NCBI GenBank assembly: GCA_937889595.1
Contig: CALAOR010000058.1
Span: 1 to 64,000, forward strand
From: an uncultured bacterium
GTDB taxonomy: Bacteria; Oederibacteriota; PGYV01; Palsa-1178
Reading direction: 5' to 3'
DNA length: 64,000 nt
The position numbers and the translations under genes are program-made. The notes beneath the pieces were generated by a model. That model was not told the DNA's origin, did no database searches, and was given only the letters and a program-made list of their open reading frames with translations. Each line of letters opens with the position of its first letter. Position 1 is the stretch's first letter. This document shows positions 1 to 8,672 of this stretch, piece after piece.

Positions 1-3000
1 CGCAGACCGTGACACAGACAGTAACGCAGACGGTAACCCAGACAGTAACGGAAACCGTGACGCAGACGGTAACGGAAACAGTGACGCAGACAGTGACGCA
101 GACAGTGACGCAGACAGTGACGCAGACCGTGACGCAGACCGTGACGCAGACCGTGACGCAGACCGTGACGCAGACCGTAACGCAGACCGTGACACAGACA
201 GTAACGCAGACGGTAACCCAGACAGTAACGGAAACAGTAACGCAGACCGTGACTGAGACAGTCACGCAAACAGTAACTGAAACAGTAACGGAAACCGTAA
301 CGCAGACAGTGACACAGACAGTGACGCAGACTGTAACTGAAACCGTTACACAAACCGTGACACAGACCGTGACGCAGACAGTAACGCAAACGGTAACTCA
401 AACTGTAACACAAACCATAACACAAACAGTAACTCAAACAGTAACACAGACTGTGACCCAGACCGTAACGCAGACCGTGACACAGACCGTAACACAAACA
501 GTAACGCAGACCGTGACTGAGACAGTAACACAAACTGTGACCGAGACAGTCACGCAAACAGTGACTGAAACAGTGACACAGACAGTAACGCAGACGGTAA
601 CTCAAACCGTAACACAGACAGTGACGCAGACGGTTACTCAAACCGTGACACAGACCGTAACACAAACAATAACACAAACAGTAACGCAGACAGTAACACA
701 AACTGTGACTGAGACAGTCACGCAAACAGTGACTGAAACCGTAACGCAAACCGTAACTCAAACCGTAACTCAAACCGTTACCCAGACAGTAACTGAAACC
801 GTAACACAGACCGTAACACAAACAGTCACCCAGACAGTGACTGAAACAATAACACAGACCGTAACCCAGACAGTGACTGAAACAGTGACGCAGACCGTAA
901 CTCAGACTGTGACCCAGACCGTTACACAAACAGTAACTGAAACCGTGACCCAGACCGTTACACAAACAGTAACTGAAACCGTGACACAGACCGTGACCCA
1001 GACCGTTACACAAACAGTAACTGAAACCGTGACACAGACCGTGACCCAGACCGTTACACAAACAGTAACTGAAACCGTGACACAGACCGTGACACAGACC
1101 GTGACACAGACCGTGACACAGACCGTGACGCAGACCGTGACACAGACCGTAACCCAGACAGTAACCCAGACAGTGACACAGACAGTAACGCAGACCGTAA
1201 CTCAAACAGTTACACAAACAGTAACTGAAACAGTAACCCAGACAGTAACTGAAACAGTGACACAGACAGTGACGCAGACTGTAACGCAAACAGTAACTGA
1301 AACCGTAACTCAAACAGTGACCCAGACAGTGACCCAGACAGTGACTGAAACAGTGACGCAAACAGTAACGCAGACAGTAACGCAGACAGTGACCCAGACA
1401 GTAACTGAGACGGTGACACAGACCATGACTCAGACTGTAACGCAGACTGTAACTGAAACAGTAACTCAGACCGTAACACAGACAGTGACACAGACAGTGA
1501 CACAGACAGTGACACAGACAGTAACGGAGACAGTAACCCAGACAGTGACTGAAACAGTGACACAGACCGTAACTCAGACAGTGACTGAAACAGTGACGCA
1601 GACCGTAACTGAGACAGTAACGCAGACTGTAACGCAGACAGTAACGCAGACAGTAACGCAGACAGTAACGCAGACTGTGACACAAACCGTGACACAAACC
1701 GTGACTCAGACAGTAACTGAAACCGTAACACAGACAGTGACCCAGACAGTAACGGAGACCGTAACACAGACAGTAACTGAGACTGTGACGCAGACAGTAA
1801 CCGAGACTGTAACACAAACGGTAACTGAGACTGTGACAGAGACCGTGACAGAAACCGTAACCCAGACAGTAACGCAGACAGTGACCCAGACAGTAACAGA
1901 AACAGTGACACAGACTGTCACTCAAACAGTGACTGAAACGATAACCCAGACAGTAACACAGACTGTGACTGAAACAATAACGCAAACAGTAACTCAAACT
2001 ATAACGGAAACAGTAACGCAAACAGTGACGCAGACAGTAACTGAGACAGTGACGCAGACTGTAACCGAAACAGTTACTCAGACAGTAACAGAGACTGTAA
2101 CCCAGACAGTAACCCAGACAGTAACTGAAACAGTGACACAGACTGTAACTCAGACTGTAACTCAGACAGTGACTGAAACGATAACCGAGACAGTTACCCA
2201 GACAGTAACTGAGACTGTGACGCAGACAGTAACTGAGACTGTGACTGAGACTGTGACACAGACCGTAACTGAAACCGTAACACAAACAGTAACTCAGACA
2301 GTGACTGAAACAATAACGCAAACAGTAACGCAGACAGTGACGCAGACTGTAACTGAAACAGTTACCCAGACAGTAACACAGACAGCAACACAGACTGTGA
2401 CTGAGACAGTGACGCAGACAGTAACCGAGACTGTAACACAAACGGTAACTGAGACTGTGACACAAACCGTGACAGAAACCGTAACGCAGACTGTAACCCA
2501 GACTGTAACTGAAACTGTAACACAGACAGTGACGGAGACAGTGACCCAAACAGTAACTGAGACCGTGACGCAGACCGTAACTGAAACCGTAACTGAAACC
2601 GTAACTGAAACCGTAACTGAAACCGTAACTGAAACCGTAACTGAAACCGTAACTGAAACCGTAACACAGACAGTAACCGAGACCGTAACGCAGACAGTAA
2701 CTGAAACAGTGACCCAGACAGTAACTGAAACCGTAACACAGACAGTAACCGAGACGGTAACCGAGACCGTGACTCAGACAGTAACTGAGACAGTAACGCA
2801 AACTGTGACTGAGACAGTAACGCAGACAGTAACTGAAACGGTGACCCAGACAGTAACTGAAACCGTAACACAGACAGTAACCGAGACAGTAACGCAGACA
2901 GTAACTGAGACAGTAACGCAGACAGTAACTGAGACAGTAACCGAGACCGTGACTGAGACCGTAACGCAGACTGTGACTGAAACAGTGACCCAGACCGTAA

Positions 3001-4462
3001 CTGAAACCGTAACGCAGACAGTAACCGAGACCGTGACTCAGACAGTAACTGAGACAGTAACGCAGACTGTGACTGAAACAGTTACTCAGACAGTAACAGA
3101 GACTGTAACCCAGACAGTAACTGAAACAGTGACCCAGACAGTAACTGAAACTGTGACACAGACAGTAACTGAGACTGTCACAGAGACCATAACTGAGACC
3201 ATAACTGAGACAGTAACGCAGACTATAACCGAAACAGTTACTCAGACAGTAACAGAGACTGTAACACAGACCATAACTGAGACAGTAACGCAGACAGTAA
3301 CAGAAACAGTGACAGAGACTGTCACTCAGACAGTGACTGAAACGATAACCGAGACTGCAACACAGACAGTAACCGAGACTGTAACACAGACAGTAACCGA
3401 GACTGTAACAGAGACTGTGACGGAGACTGTCACAGAGACTGTGACGGAGACTGTCACAGAGACTGTCACAGAGACCATAACCGAGACCGTAACGCAGACA
3501 GTAACAGAGACAGTCACAGAGACTATCACAGAGACTATCACGGAGACTGTGACAGAGACAGTCACAGAGACAGTCACAGAGACAGTCACAGAGACAGTCA
3601 CAGAGACTGTCACACAGACTGTCACTGAAACTGTAACGGAGACTGTAACTGAGACCGTAACCGAGACAGTGACGCAGACAGTAACCGAAACAGTCACCGA
3701 GACTGTCACCGAGACTGTCACCGAGACTGTCACCGAGACTGTCACCGAGACCGTGACAGAAACTGTAACAGAAACAATAACTGAAACAGTAACTGAGACT
3801 ATTACTGAAACCGTGACTGAGACTGTTACTGAAACCGTCACTGAAACCGTGACTGAGACTGTCACTGAGACCGTCACTGAGACCATCACCGAAACAGTAA
3901 CCGAGACAGTAACAGAAACCGTGACAGAGACTATAACGGATACAATAACTGAAACACCGACAGATACAGTGACCGAGACTGTGACTGAGACTGTCACTGA
4001 AACTGTGACAGAAACTGCGACAGAGACAGTAACTGAAACTGTGACCGAGACTGTGACCGAGACTGTGACTGAGACTGTCACTGAAACCGTCACTGAGACC
4101 GTTACCAAAACAGCAACAGAGACCGTGACAGCGACAGTGACCGAGACTGTAACGGATACAATAACTGAAACACCGACAGATACAGTAACCGAGACCGTGA
4201 CTGAGACTGTCACTGAGACCATCACCGAAACAGTAACCGAGACAGTAACAGAAACCGTGACAGAGACCGTAACGGATACAGTAACTGAAACTCCGACAGA
4301 TACAGTAACAGAGACTATAACCGGAACAGTAACATATACTGTTACAGAGACAGTGACGGAAACCATTACTGAAACATCGACAAACACGGTCACGAAAACT
4401 GCAACCGAGACAATTACAGAGACCGTAACCGAGACAATTACGGAAACAATTACGGAAACCGA
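1..4462 (+). repeat. 12-bp in-frame minisatellite encoding about 370 TVTQ/TVTE units
   Basis: The unit is ACN-GTN-ACN-[CG]A[AG], 12 bp, essentially uninterrupted. Synonymous positions vary freely while the protein pattern is kept, so most of the array is old and selected at the protein level. Some blocks are nearly identical at DNA level, such as ACTGAAACCGTA at about 2581-2664, GTGACACAGACC at about 1077-1140 and GTCACCGAGACT at about 3697-3745; these look like recent slippage. Units are mostly Gln type up to about 1700, roughly alternate Gln/Glu to about 3400, and are mostly Glu type after that. Asp, Pro and Ile variants appear after about 3930. The array creates long spurious open frames on the minus strand. 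Confidence 0.97.
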
Positions 4463-5765
4463 TACTCCAACAGTTACCAAAACTGCAACGCCTACAGTAA
4501 CCGTTACTATAACGGATACTGCAACACCTACATTTACAGCAACCGATACACCTACGGTGACAAAGACCAATACACCTACAGTGACCCCGACTGCTACTGC
4601 AACCACTACAAAAACCGTAACGTCTACATACTCTGTGACTGCAACATACACAAACACTAAAACGTCCACGGCAACTTACACGCCGTCAAGCACGCGGACA
4701 AGCACAACGGCGTATACAAATACTGTGACAAGCACATCAACTCCGACGTCTACAAGCACTTCTACTTTCACAACATCCCCGACCTATACCTTGACGCCGA
4801 GCTTCTCAGCGACTGAAACATTTACAAGTACGCCCACGCAGAGTGCGACAATAACACCGACGCCGACGCCGAAATTCGAAATGAAGATAGCTGTTTATAA
4901 TTCAGCGGGAGAAATAGTGAAGGTCATAGCGCTCTCGGCCGCGTATACCATACCTGATAATTTCACGATAACCAACAGCGTATTCAGCCCGGATGACGGA
5001 GGCAAAGCGCAGATAAGCGTGGACCAGACCGTGGTTGAATGGAACGGAACAAACCAGATGAATGCAAGGGTTGAGAACGGCATCTACTATGTAAAGGTGG
5101 AGATAGTGGATCCGTTGGGTTACAGCCACACCATGGTGCAGCAGGTAACAGTCCTGACAAATAGCAGCAAAAAGGAATTCCTGATATATAACAGCGGGGG
5201 AGAGATAATAAAACATATACCCATCAATTATCTGGCTGGAACAGGGTCCACAGTGCTTACTGTAAACAACAGTGTGTTCTCGCCCGGCGACGGAGGAGGA
5301 ACACCCAATTACGCGGAATTTACGTACATGGGCCAGACAATACAGTGGGATGGAACAAATGACAAAGGCGATATAGTAGGAAACGGCGTTTATAGCGCCG
5401 TGCTTGCAACCGTGGATAACAACGCATACAGCGCCGTTGCCGAAACAAGCCTGACAGTAATGCATAATGCCTATGAGGTAATGACAAATATAAGAGTACT
5501 GCCGAACCCTGTAAATAACGCCAATAGCACGGTGATGAAGATAAGATATGATGTTATGAGCGGCACTGTCATAACGGCAAAAGTTTACAATATGGCCGGC
5601 GAACTGGTGAAAACAATGACAGATTATAATAATGCCGGGGAAGTAAAGTGGGACTTAAGTTCTGAAAGACGGATAGCCCCCGGGCTATATGTGGCTGTTA
5701 TCTATGCCCGCACGCAAAGCGGAATGAGCAAGACATCTATAATTAAATTCACAATAATGCGTTAA
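1..5765 (+). CDS. Giant Thr-rich TVTQ/TVTE repeat surface protein with C-terminal FlgD-Ig-like domains (5' end outside window)
   Basis: The reading frame is open from the first base (first whole codon at 3), so the gene begins upstream; the GTG at 9 is only an internal Val codon. At least 1,920 residues are visible. About 1,485 of them are tetrapeptides T-[VI]-T-[QE]. A degenerate Thr/Ser/Pro-rich linker follows (DNA about 4463-4871). Then come three beta-sandwich modules at about residues 1622-1720, 1721-1822 and 1823-1918, counted from base 9. They carry FlgD-Ig hallmarks: YNSAGEIVK, a W-[ND]-G-T-N turn, and G-[IV]-Y near the end; the last has the PNPV and APGLYVAVIYA signatures of C-terminal surface or sorting modules. 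Such ends are typical of secreted, cell-surface or appendage proteins. The repeat arm could form a long extended beta or O-glycosylated stalk, but its function is unknown. The gene ends at a strong terminator. Confidence 0.85.
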   Translation, partial: QTVTQTVTQTVTQTVTETVTQTVTETVTQTVTQTVTQTVTQTVTQTVTQTVTQTVTQTVTQTVTQTVTQTVTQTVTETVTQTVTETVTQTVTETVTETVTQTVTQTVTQTVTETVTQTVTQTVTQTVTQTVTQTVTQTITQTVTQTVTQTVTQTVTQTVTQTVTQTVTQTVTETVTQTVTETVTQTVTETVTQTVTQTVTQTVTQTVTQTVTQTVTQTVTQTITQTVTQTVTQTVTETVTQTVTETVTQTVTQTVTQTVTQTVTETVTQTVTQTVTQTVTETITQTVTQTVTETVTQTVTQTVTQTVTQTVTETVTQTVTQTVTETVTQTVTQTVTQTVTETVTQTVTQTVTQTVTETVTQTVTQTVTQTVTQTVTQTVTQTVTQTVTQTVTQTVTQTVTQTVTQTVTETVTQTVTETVTQTVTQTVTQTVTETVTQTVTQTVTQTVTETVTQTVTQTVTQTVTQTVTETVTQTMTQTVTQTVTETVTQTVTQTVTQTVTQTVTQTVTETVTQTVTETVTQTVTQTVTETVTQTVTETVTQTVTQTVTQTVTQTVTQTVTQTVTQTVTQTVTETVTQTVTQTVTETVTQTVTETVTQTVTETVTQTVTETVTETVTETVTQTVTQTVTQTVTETVTQTVTQTVTETITQTVTQTVTETITQTVTQTITETVTQTVTQTVTETVTQTVTETVTQTVTETVTQTVTQTVTETVTQTVTQTVTQTVTETITETVTQTVTETVTQTVTETVTETVTQTVTETVTQTVTQTVTETITQTVTQTVTQTVTETVTQTVTQTATQTVTETVTQTVTETVTQTVTETVTQTVTETVTQTVTQTVTETVTQTVTETVTQTVTETVTQTVTETVTETVTETVTETVTETVTETVTETVTQTVTETVTQTVTETVTQTVTETVTQTVTETVTETVTQTVTETVTQTVTETVTQTVTETVTQTVTETVTQTVTETVTQTVTETVTQTVTETVTETVTETVTQTVTETVTQTVTETVTQTVTETVTQTVTETVTQTVTETVTQTVTETVTQTVTETVTQTVTETVTQTVTETVTETITETITETVTQTITETVTQTVTETVTQTITETVTQTVTETVTETVTQTVTETITETATQTVTETVTQTVTETVTETVTETVTETVTETVTETVTETITETVTQTVTETVTETITETITETVTETVTETVTETVTETVTETVTQTVTETVTETVTETVTETVTQTVTETVTETVTETVTETVTETVTETVTETVTETITETVTETITETVTETVTETVTETVTETVTETVTETITETVTETVTETVTETITDTITETPTDTVTETVTETVTETVTETATETVTETVTETVTETVTETVTETVTETVTKTATETVTATVTETVTDTITETPTDTVTETVTETVTETITETVTETVTETVTETVTDTVTETPTDTVTETITGTVTYTVTETVTETITETSTNTVTKTATETITETVTETITETITETDTPTVTKTATPTVTVTITDTATPTFTATDTPTVTKTNTPTVTPTATATTTKTVTSTYSVTATYTNTKTSTATYTPSSTRTSTTAYTNTVTSTSTPTSTSTSTFTTSPTYTLTPSFSATETFTSTPTQSATITPTPTPKFEMKIAVYNSAGEIVKVIALSAAYTIPDNFTITNSVFSPDDGGKAQISVDQTVVEWNGTNQMNARVENGIYYVKVEIVDPLGYSHTMVQQVTVLTNSSKKEFLIYNSGGEIIKHIPINYLAGTGSTVLTVNNSVFSPGDGGGTPNYAEFTYMGQTIQWDGTNDKGDIVGNGVYSAVLATVDNNAYSAVAETSLTVMHNAYEVMTNIRVLPNPVNNANSTVMKIRYDVMSGTVITAKVYNMAGELVKTMTDYNNAGEVKWDLSSERRIAPGLYVAVIYARTQSGMSKTSIIKFTIMR

Positions 5766-5790
5766 TACTTTTTTGGGGAATTAGCACGGG

Positions 5791-5826
5791 CCAAGGACAC
5801 GGTTGCTAACCGTGTCCTTGGCTTTT
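5791..5826 (+). terminator. Rho-independent terminator after the giant repeat gene
   Basis: A perfect 14-bp stem (CCAAGGACACGGTT with its complement, 5791-5804 and 5808-5821) has a 3-nt loop and is followed by CTTTTT. It lies 25 bp after the stop codon. The stretch from here to 5904 holds only a small GTAGAA/GTAGAG-type simple repeat near 5846-5870. Confidence 0.9.
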
Positions 5827-5904: not shown

Positions 5905-7038
5905 TTGAAAAAAACAATGGTTGATGATATCCAGGAAGGCGAAATAGCCGCGCTTGACGTATATGACAACTGCGGCAATGAACTCATAAAGAAAGGCGCA
6001 ATTCTTAAGGCGTCCCTGAAAACAAGCTTAAAAAAGGCGGGGATATATTTTTTGTATTCGGATGATAATGAAGGCTCCGTGCATACCGTCTATAAACTAA
6101 AAACCCTGGCAGAACTCCTTCAAGTCATGAAATGTTTCATTGCTTCAAACGGCGAAAACGCGGAAATATTAAAAAAATACGGCAAGGAAGAGATAAAAAG
6201 GTTCTTATCGGCTTCGAACGAAACAGGCAATAAGATAGCATACGGTCACATATTCCGTTATTTTGCCACTGAGATGGTTTCTTCACTTAATGAAAATAAA
6301 AAGCAGGTATATGATTTTCAGGACTACAGAACCATTGAAACTTACCCGGAATATCATATTGTCAATGCCGCGTGCATTACGGGAGTGCTGGCGCATAATA
6401 TGGGGCTTAAAGATGAAGAAAAAGTCGATGCCATAACAGGCGCGCTGTTATGCGATATTAAAATGAACCAGTATAAATTCATAGGCGAAAACAGGGAGTT
6501 AACGGGAACGGAAAAGGAAGAAATGAGGCAGCATCCGCTTTTAAGTTTTGATATGGCCAGGAAAATATACGGGATCCCCGCAAGGGCCGCGCTTATCGCG
6601 CTGCAGCACCACGAACGGTATGACAAAGGCGGTTACCCAAAGGGTATTGGAGGGAATGATATCGGCGTTCTGGGTAAAATAGCGGCAATTGCCGATGTCT
6701 ATGACGCTTTGACAAGTTCAAGACCGTTCAGGAAGGTTTACACCCCGTCTGACGCCTGGCATTGCATAGATTCAAACATTGGAATACTTTTTGATCCTGC
6801 GGTTGCTGAAGAATTTAAACGTTCCATTCCTGAATATTTCCCGGGAGATATTGTGGAGGTAAAAGACGGTGATAAAGCAATAGTGCTTGAGAATTGTTAC
6901 GGGAAGCCGCAATCGCCTTCCATAAAAATAATTGAAAAAAAAGACAAAAGTGCTATAATCTCATGCAGCGTTAAGACCCAAACTATAGTAAAAACACTGG
7001 AATCAATACGTCAAAAGGAGCAGCAATGGGAAGAATAA
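5905..7038 (+). CDS. Degenerate HD-GYP domain protein
   Basis: This 377-residue protein has a beta-rich N-terminal region (about 1-60) and an HD-GYP-type domain (about 145-300). HD-GYP enzymes normally hydrolyse cyclic di-GMP using a metal centre. Visible elements are H151, H210, H235-H236-E237, the GYP loop (GGYPKG, 242-247) and DVYDAL (264-269). The defining HD pair reads C183-D184 inside LLCDIKM instead of LLHDIGK, so a key metal-binding His is missing and catalysis is doubtful. The start is TTG at 5905, with CGAGG 6 nt upstream; the in-frame ATG at 5917 is too far from it. The 3' end overlaps parA by 13 nt, so the two are probably co-translated. The protein may be a binding or regulatory pseudo-enzyme. 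Confidence 0.8.
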   Translation: MKKTMVDDIQEGEIAALDVYDNCGNELIKKGAILKASLKTSLKKAGIYFLYSDDNEGSVHTVYKLKTLAELLQVMKCFIASNGENAEILKKYGKEEIKRFLSASNETGNKIAYGHIFRYFATEMVSSLNENKKQVYDFQDYRTIETYPEYHIVNAACITGVLAHNMGLKDEEKVDAITGALLCDIKMNQYKFIGENRELTGTEKEEMRQHPLLSFDMARKIYGIPARAALIALQHHERYDKGGYPKGIGGNDIGVLGKIAAIADVYDALTSSRPFRKVYTPSDAWHCIDSNIGILFDPAVAEEFKRSIPEYFPGDIVEVKDGDKAIVLENCYGKPQSPSIKIIEKKDKSAIISCSVKTQTIVKTLESIRQKEQQWEE

Positions 7039-7817
7039 TATCCGTCGCGAACCAGAAGGGCGGGGTAGGCAAAACCACGACCACTGTAAATACAGCCAGC
7101 GCCATAGCGGCGCGGGGGAAAAAAGTGTTGATAGTGGACATAGACCCGCAGGGAAACTCAACGCTTGGGCTCGGGTTCGATAAGGAAGTGGAAACGGAAA
7201 ATATATATAACCTGCTCATAGGGGATATGCCTGTCAGGAGCGTCATAAAAAAGACAGCGGTTGAAAATCTCGATATAATCCCGTCAAACATAGACCTGAC
7301 CGGCGCTGAAGTTGAACTCGTTAATGAAGAAGAAAGGGAAACAAGGCTGAAAAAAGGGCTTGACCAGGTTAAAGACGAATACGATTACATTTTCATAGAC
7401 TCGCCCCCTTCACTGGGGCTTTTGACGCTTAATTCGCTTGTAGCGTCCGACTCGGTAATGATACCCATGCAATGTGAATTCTATGCCCTGGACGGTTTAG
7501 GGCAGCTATTGGAGACCATAGGGGCCGTAAAAAAATCCCTTAATCCGGACCTCGTAATAGAAGGGGTTGTGATTACCATGTTTGACTCCAGGACAAGCCT
7601 TTCTTTGCAGGTTGTGGAAGAGGTAAAGAAAAAGTTCAAACATAAGGTATATGACACGGTAATACCGAGAAATGTCAGGCTTTCAGAGGCCCCGAGTTTC
7701 GGGCAGCCCATAGACGTGTATGACATGCATTCAAAGGGAGCAAAAGCTTATGACAATCTGGCTGCGGAAATAACAGGCATAAAAGAAGCGCGCAAAAGCG
7801 CTGCGGGAAAGGGGTAA
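7026..7817 (+). CDS. parA: Chromosome-partitioning ATPase ParA (Soj)
   Basis: This 263-residue MinD/ParA-family ATPase acts with ParB to move newly copied origin regions apart. The deviant Walker A motif KGGVGKTT (11-18) contains both signature lysines. The Walker A' region DIDPQGN lies at 38-44, and FIDSPPSLGLLTLN corresponds to Walker B and the switch. The length fits chromosomal Soj-type ParA, without the N-terminal DNA-binding extension of plasmid type Ia proteins. The start ATG lies inside the end of the HD-GYP gene, with AAGGAGCAGC just upstream. parB follows after 6 bp. No canonical parS site (GTTTCACGTGAAAC-like) was seen nearby. Confidence 0.96.
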   Translation: MGRIISVANQKGGVGKTTTTVNTASAIAARGKKVLIVDIDPQGNSTLGLGFDKEVETENIYNLLIGDMPVRSVIKKTAVENLDIIPSNIDLTGAEVELVNEEERETRLKKGLDQVKDEYDYIFIDSPPSLGLLTLNSLVASDSVMIPMQCEFYALDGLGQLLETIGAVKKSLNPDLVIEGVVITMFDSRTSLSLQVVEEVKKKFKHKVYDTVIPRNVRLSEAPSFGQPIDVYDMHSKGAKAYDNLAAEITGIKEARKSAAGKG

Positions 7818-7823
7818 TACAAC

Positions 7824-8672
7824 ATGGCAAGACAGGCATTGGGAAAAGGGCTCGAGGCATTGATCCCGGGTTCAAGGTCAAAAGCATCATCAGCGCCGGT
7901 AAGAGGCTCTTTGGAAATCAGCATAAATGACATAAGGGCAAATCCCAACCAGCCAAGAAAAAGGTTCGCTCCTGAAAAACTCGAGGAGCTGATAAAGTCG
8001 GTAAAATCCAGGGGCGTCATAGAACCCCTGATAGTAAAAGAAACGGGAAACAAATACGAACTCATAGCCGGTGAAAGGCGTTTTATAGCGGCCCAGCGCG
8101 CCGGTTTAAAAGTTGTGCCGGTAATAATAAAAAATGTATCACCGGCGGAACAGCTTGAAATTGGTTTGATAGAGAATATAATGAGGCAGGATTTGAACCC
8201 TGTTGAAGAAGCATTTGCCTTTAAAAACCTGATGGAAAGCTATAAGTGCACGCAGGAAGAACTTTCCGACAGGATAGGAATAAACAGGGCAAATGTGGCA
8301 AACATCATAAGGGTGCTGAAATTGCCTGCCGAGATACAACAGTATATAATAAATGAAGAACTCTCTTTAGGCCACGCAAAGGTGCTTTTAGGTGTGGAAG
8401 ACAGGGTGAAACAACGCCAGTTGGCCGACCAGACGGTAAGAAAAGGCCTGTCTGTCAGGGACTTAGAAGGCATATTGGAAAAATCCCCGTCAAAAAAGTC
8501 GGGCGCAAAACAGCAGGCTTCGGCTGAAATGAAAAGCATTGAGAATAAAATGAAACTCCATTTCGGGACCAAAGTCAGCATAAAAGGCAGCTATAAAAAA
8601 GGCACAATAGTGATTGAATATTATAATTCCGAGGATTTTGAAAGAATTACGGAGATAATGAGGATAAAATAG
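7824..8672 (+). CDS. parB: Chromosome-partitioning protein ParB (Spo0J)
   Basis: This 282-residue protein binds parS and nucleotides and loads onto DNA as a clamp. It opens with the conserved ParA-interacting sequence MARQALGKGLEALIP. The CTP-binding region contains GERRF (83-87) and the ENIMRQDLNPVEEA box (117-130). A helix-turn-helix (LSDRIGINRANVANIIRVLKL, about 147-167) follows, then a linker and a C-terminal dimerisation domain. Length is typical. It is the last gene of the HD-GYP-parA-parB operon; a repeat-rich intergenic region begins right after its stop. Confidence 0.96.
   Translation: MARQALGKGLEALIPGSRSKASSAPVRGSLEISINDIRANPNQPRKRFAPEKLEELIKSVKSRGVIEPLIVKETGNKYELIAGERRFIAAQRAGLKVVPVIIKNVSPAEQLEIGLIENIMRQDLNPVEEAFAFKNLMESYKCTQEELSDRIGINRANVANIIRVLKLPAEIQQYIINEELSLGHAKVLLGVEDRVKQRQLADQTVRKGLSVRDLEGILEKSPSKKSGAKQQASAEMKSIENKMKLHFGTKVSIKGSYKKGTIVIEYYNSEDFERITEIMRIK

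Follow-up and report, generated by a model that had tools for sequence, protein, structure and literature searches.

A predicted type IX-exported giant protein with threonine at every second residue, conserved beside parAB in an order of an uncultured bacterial phylum

The window analyzed here, bases 1-64000 of contig C58 in a 3.42-Mb, 99% complete MAG, opens inside a gene whose product is probably a giant surface protein, secreted by a type IX system and built around a flexible, extended threonine stalk that is conserved in order-level relatives. The host is an uncultured bacterium of the Goldbacteria/FCPU426 group; one study groups FCPU426 with Goldbacteria, some of which degrade cellulose (PMC7031533). 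The 5' end of the gene as seen is base 1 of the contig, making the 385 tetrads counted here a lower bound. Features of the gene and its immediate neighborhood are collected in Table 1; no tRNAs were found in the 64-kb window.

Table 1. Array gene and adjacent features (positions within the window)
Feature	Position	Strand	Remarks
3'-terminal part of giant array gene	1..5765 (ORF 3..5765)	+	1920 codons present, ~206 kDa; 5' open
385 unbroken T-x-T-x tetrads, mainly TVTQ/TVTE	6..4625	+	
Array zones: Gln-rich to ~1700; Q/E alternating ~1700-3400; Glu-rich >3400; mixed after ~3900		+	
Degenerate Thr/Ser/Pro-rich linker from array to folded domains	4626..4874	+	
FlgD-Ig-like domains	4875..5501	+	conserved "VYNSAGE" and "WDGTND"-like motifs; PF13860 best stretch 5028-5102; all-beta model
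Predicted T9SS type A sorting domain, C-terminal	5502..5762	+	TIGR04183 stretch 5502-5729, 30.4 bits, cut-off 23
Terminator-like inverted repeat, then TTTTT	5789..5826	+	CCAAGGACACGGTT-GC-TAACCGTGTCCTTGG-CTTTTT, directly 3' of array gene; by eye
HD-domain protein, ParA, ParB cluster (syntenic marker)	5905..8672	+	3' of orthologous array gene in 8 other genomes

The threonine array

Thr occupies every second position over residues 2-1543: all 771 of these codons begin AC, with zero exceptions, and at none of them is Thr replaced by Ser. The giant array proposed in an earlier, sequence-only reading is therefore real, its tetrads unbroken, and that reading's figure of about 370 tetrapeptides to nt 4462 was roughly right, if slightly short of the 385 that run to nt 4625. 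Most of the tetrads are TVTQ (176) or TVTE (151), with smaller numbers of TITE (20) and TITQ (6), and there is almost no Pro in this stretch of more than 1540 residues of strict Thr alternation.

The Gln-to-Glu gradient described in the same reading is borne out (Spearman rho 0.54 for Glu against position, P ~1e-28), with 113 Q and 29 E before nt 1700, 69 and 72 between 1700 and 3400, and 3 and 73 thereafter. The rough TVTQ-TVTE alternation that it claimed for the middle zone is also found, the two residues switching 106 times there against 70.5 +/- 6.0 in shuffled sequences (a count reached in 0 of 5000 shuffles), as is the rise in negative charge toward the C-terminus: net charge per 100 residues goes from -5 through -13 to -19.

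The assembled part of the array is more than a single unit stuttered over and over, since its 385 12-mers include 141 distinct ones and no exact in-phase repeat is longer than 104 bases. The 771 Thr codons show zero heterozygosity at positions 1 and 2 and 0.72 at position 3 (maximum 0.75), and third-base identity is 0.43 between adjacent units versus 0.37 between shuffled ones. That so many alternate codons all specify Thr, with third bases near random, indicates that selection acts on the protein; because third bases are near saturation and adjacent units barely more alike than shuffled ones, the array is old relative to synonymous drift, its Thr pattern having been kept by selection. Judged by its codons, the Thr array is under strong protein-level constraint.

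One alternative is that the array arose neutrally by replication slippage, or is an artefact of repeat assembly, with no function of its own. The locally identical runs, and the fact that arrays break contigs in 9 of 9 genomes with the gene, would fit such an origin; near-saturated third bases with zero Thr lost, adjacent units barely more alike at those bases than shuffled ones, and the in-frame arrays of differing units that nine species, each assembled independently, have at this locus would not, making it very improbable and already largely refuted. What the broken contigs do make untrustworthy is the copy number, which may have been collapsed by assembly. Some contig ends overlap exactly (C43-C69 by 39 bases, C66-C34 by 42 bases and, in the relative G039, C11-C13 by 32 bases); between the start of C58 and five candidate contig ends there was no exact overlap.

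Another possibility is that the DNA itself matters, as an array of chromosome-organizing or protein-binding sites near parAB. Its position beside ParA/ParB is conserved across the order, but the 12-mers differ, synonymous sites are scrambled while amino acids are preserved, and many similar arrays lie on other contigs, so that this idea is exceedingly unlikely. A scan of the window for parS-like sites, allowing up to 3 mismatches, found none. With the Thr pattern kept while synonymous sites drifted, neither a DNA-level role nor a fresh slippage product fits.

Two candidate features of the array region were rejected: a DUF445 (PF04286) match at 1206-4205 (113 bits) is scattered across four pure-repeat stretches, of which the best aligns to profile positions 76-339 of 368, and was judged a low-complexity artefact; and a 933-aa minus-strand ORF is no more than the repeat's mirror frame. 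The likely DUF445 false positive could mislead automatic annotation.

Orthologues at the parAB locus

Queries with the C-terminal 300 aa and with ParA located a syntenic orthologue 5' of the HD/ParA/ParB cluster in eight order-level relatives, with C-terminal identities to the window protein of 81% (G044), 64% (G042) and 45-48% (G041, G040, G039, G038, G037, G035). A complete orthologue was sought, and in 8 of 8 the gene is cut at a contig end, running off inside the TxTx array as it does in the window. The presence of the same gene in the same place in these relatives suggests a conserved, very long exported stalk, and probably not an assembly artefact. An FAD-linked oxidase-like ORF (named by eye) lies 5' of the HD gene in G042 and G043.

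The array units themselves vary, from T[VIAM]TE in G039-G041 and T[IV]T[EQ] in G037/G038 to TVT[PQE] in G035 and mixed units in G042/G044, and Pro takes up 13-23% of x positions in the arrays of G035, G044 and G042. At these loci, the rule that orthologues share is Thr at every second residue, and the exact TVTQ/TVTE unit and its gradient are local. Of the strict TVTQ/TVTE pattern put forward earlier, the alternating Thr has thus proved strict; the exact unit has not stood as a functional principle, since orthologues swap the other residues.

Predicted form of the array

With Pro filling as many as 23% of x positions in arrays of orthologues, a strict helix or sheet is disfavored and an extended flexible chain favored; from array composition and the Pro-rich orthologues, we infer a stalk that is both flexible and extended. 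The sequence-only reading had envisaged a long beta fiber with an all-Thr face, and had mentioned ice or mineral binding. An ordered fiber or stacked sheet of this kind, perhaps with affinity for ice, mineral or a crystalline polymer, would agree with the strict two-residue period, the beta-branched residues, Chou-Fasman values of 1.19 for beta versus 1.00 for alpha, and the eight-residue period that Q/E alternation gives to the middle zone. It is nevertheless improbable: regular sheet or helix tolerates Pro poorly at the levels seen in the three Pro-rich orthologues, the sole fold prediction gave a helix among models that disagree, and no relative has a solved structure, only two PDB sequences matching, both apparently through composition (8zvk_A was rejected on this ground). 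The units of known TxT ice-binding repeats are longer and include turns. The proposed fold prediction of array units was run, with AlphaFold2 in single-sequence mode on a 120-residue segment, and its best model was a 118-residue helix; the five models, scored 93, 88, 85, 32 and 30, contradict each other and were not relied on. The all-Thr-face fiber and the binding of ice or mineral by the array are both unsupported.

Related arrays within and beyond the host genome

The window protein is one member of a large TxTx family. About 20 further TxTx-array proteins are encoded in the host genome, for example on C57 (L010), C16 (L016), C59 (L012), C69 (L009), C34 (L011) and C21 (L013). In L010, similar globular domains of roughly 115-120 aa have TVTQ arrays between them, and a signal-peptide-like N-terminus (by eye) followed by a globular region and then an array is present in L010, L012, L013, L015, L018, L022, L023 and L026; no Pfam domains were found in nine paralogue N-terminal regions. 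In another TxTx protein, L080 of G039 (contig C10), the N-terminal region is marginal against CBM_3 cellulose binding (22.1 bits, cut-off 22.4), and it has a short motif region in common with L023 of the host genome.

Across the phylum, runs of TxTx with 12 Thr were detected in 34 of 45 genomes, from 23 of 28 genera; none turned up in families f7-f9 of this set. The specific pattern TVT[QE]x5 has 432 matches in the host genome and 1-7 in 4 of 44 other phylum genomes; within the phylum, long TVT[QE] runs are nearly confined to the host genome. Among 84,980 species genomes (from which the host's own may be left out), TVT[QE]x6 matched three contigs, two from the host phylum, with match positions corresponding to G042 and G033, and one from another MAG, where the match is a short TVTE linker; none of the viral contigs had TVT[QE] runs. 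The search of related genomes for T-V-T-[QE] arrays that the sequence-only reading had suggested therefore finds the exact unit rare and general TxTx arrays widespread, and a literature search found no described family with the exact TVTQ/TVTE unit, as that reading had supposed. In MAG bin66 (L029:86-1960), a TVTE linker of about eight units follows a signal-peptide-like N-terminus, with L,D-transpeptidase-like features by eye.

C-terminal domains and export

The FlgD-Ig-like C-terminal domains named in the sequence-only reading are confirmed by the FlgD_ig match, and the predicted C-terminal structure is all-beta (pLDDT 82, pTM 0.41). Foldseek matches of this model (generic adhesin Ig-like tandems, latent PorU and giant adhesins, all with low TM-scores) were not used for family assignment. 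The sorting-domain match is to TIGR04183 (Table 1), the Pfam models CHU_C and Por_Secre_tail staying below their cut-offs in the window protein. TIGR04183 is also passed by 9 of 10 scanned C-terminal regions of paralogues and orthologues; the orthologues L054 and L072 score 24.9 and 25.7, and L009:691-987, at 20.4, is below the cut-off.

Candidate components of the export machinery are encoded elsewhere in the host genome. A full-size, single-copy SprA/Sov-like protein of 2131 aa on C76 (L095:1759-8154) matches TIGR04189 with an E value of 5.5e-55 (186.4 bits, cut-off 200) and has relatives in 13 of 14 genomes of the order. The PorV family (NF033709) has 40 matches in the host genome, the best at 182.5 bits (cut-off 90), and none above cut-off in 14 control genomes. 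The PorU model NF033707 has no match over cut-off, nearly all the listed ones falling on its C-terminal sorting tail; one ORF (L099:616-4302, on C10) contains Peptidase_C25 and Propeptide_C25 followed by a TRTRT-type Thr array, a TxTx tail. The GldL motor model TIGR03513 matched in 0 of 14 genomes, the control genomes being silent as well. With SprA and PorU below cut-off and GldL silent, these matches fall short of a full T9SS and make a divergent T9SS-like export route likely. The surface or secreted location suspected earlier is strengthened by the sorting domain above cut-off, the T9SS-like components and the signal-peptide-like N-termini of paralogues.

Two further observations concern these genes. 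The ORF just 3' of the SprA-like gene ends in a sorting-domain-like tail (by eye), and the PorV family is much expanded, with 10-66 matches in each of 21 genomes, many of them within larger open frames.

Discussion

In the explanation that we consider probable, the array protein would pass through Sec by means of a predicted N-terminal signal peptide, encoded in the part that lies beyond the contig end in all nine genomes. Its C-terminal domain would be recognized by a divergent type IX secretion machine, and it would be exported via the SprA-like pore and then either stay attached to the surface or be released from it. As a long, hydrophilic, mostly extended flexible stalk (at most ~0.5 micrometer for the part seen, if fully extended), the Thr array would hold a putative N-terminal domain at a distance from the cell. 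Polarity and charge would be tuned by the x residues and by the balance of Gln to Glu, which would be free to drift between species, with Thr positions fixed.

Parts of this design have counterparts in known systems. Thr/Pro-rich linkers of secreted glycoside hydrolases and other surface proteins are likewise low-complexity, Thr-rich spacers between folded extracellular domains, but they typically span from tens of residues to a few hundred and are Pro/Ser-rich, unlike the nearly Pro-free and strictly alternating array. We know of no counterpart of the TxTx array among T9SS cargo. SprB of Flavobacterium, a giant adhesin, is comparable as a very large T9SS-exported surface protein, such export being predicted for the window protein; its repeats differ. 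Gliding, in which SprB has a role in Flavobacterium (PMC8986121), is not known from the host phylum. Like type A cargo of the Bacteroidota T9SS (TIGR04183), the window protein has Ig-like domains before a sorting domain that scores above cut-off, and its genome encodes an SprA-like translocon and PorV family; unlike that cargo, it belongs to a host outside the Bacteroidota, to which T9SS is restricted according to several published accounts (PMC7463736, PMC5445135), with a silent GldL model and SprA just below cut-off. The array protein is unusual in its scale and its strict alternating Thr, and ordinary as a secreted modular protein with a low-complexity spacer.

Animal mucins and yeast flocculins, which have Thr/Ser tandem-repeat regions, resemble the putative stalk in being long, Thr-dense and extracellular; the window array differs in its strict T-x alternation and in being bacterial. 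A tentative refinement of the stalk explanation, not exclusive of it, is that Thr is kept for O-glycosylation, giving a stiff, hydrated, protease-resistant brush. Thr alone is invariant while its neighbors vary freely, none has been lost in 771 positions, and the sorting domain would place the protein at the surface. On the other side, D-[ST]-[ALIVMT], the motif for O-glycosylation in Bacteroidota, occurs only rarely in the array, and Ser, also a common O-glycan acceptor, never stands in for Thr. Broader still, and to be entertained as a speculative possibility, is a phylum-wide class of type IX-exported stalks in which Thr recurs at every second residue over lengths reaching 1000 residues or more: in effect a mucin or polymer brush of prokaryotes, possibly dense in O-glycans, with its own conserved locus beside parAB.

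For the stalk protein itself, the finding is of a highly monotonous bacterial protein sequence under strong protein-level constraint, at a position conserved across an order. Because TxTx arrays break assemblies, such proteins are systematically shortened in MAGs. The protein points to type IX-like secretion beyond the Bacteroidota and offers a testable cargo for it; the phylum concerned is uncultured and has members that degrade cellulose (PMC7031533). If the Thr rule reflects glycosylation, these stalks would be a bacterial counterpart of mucins.
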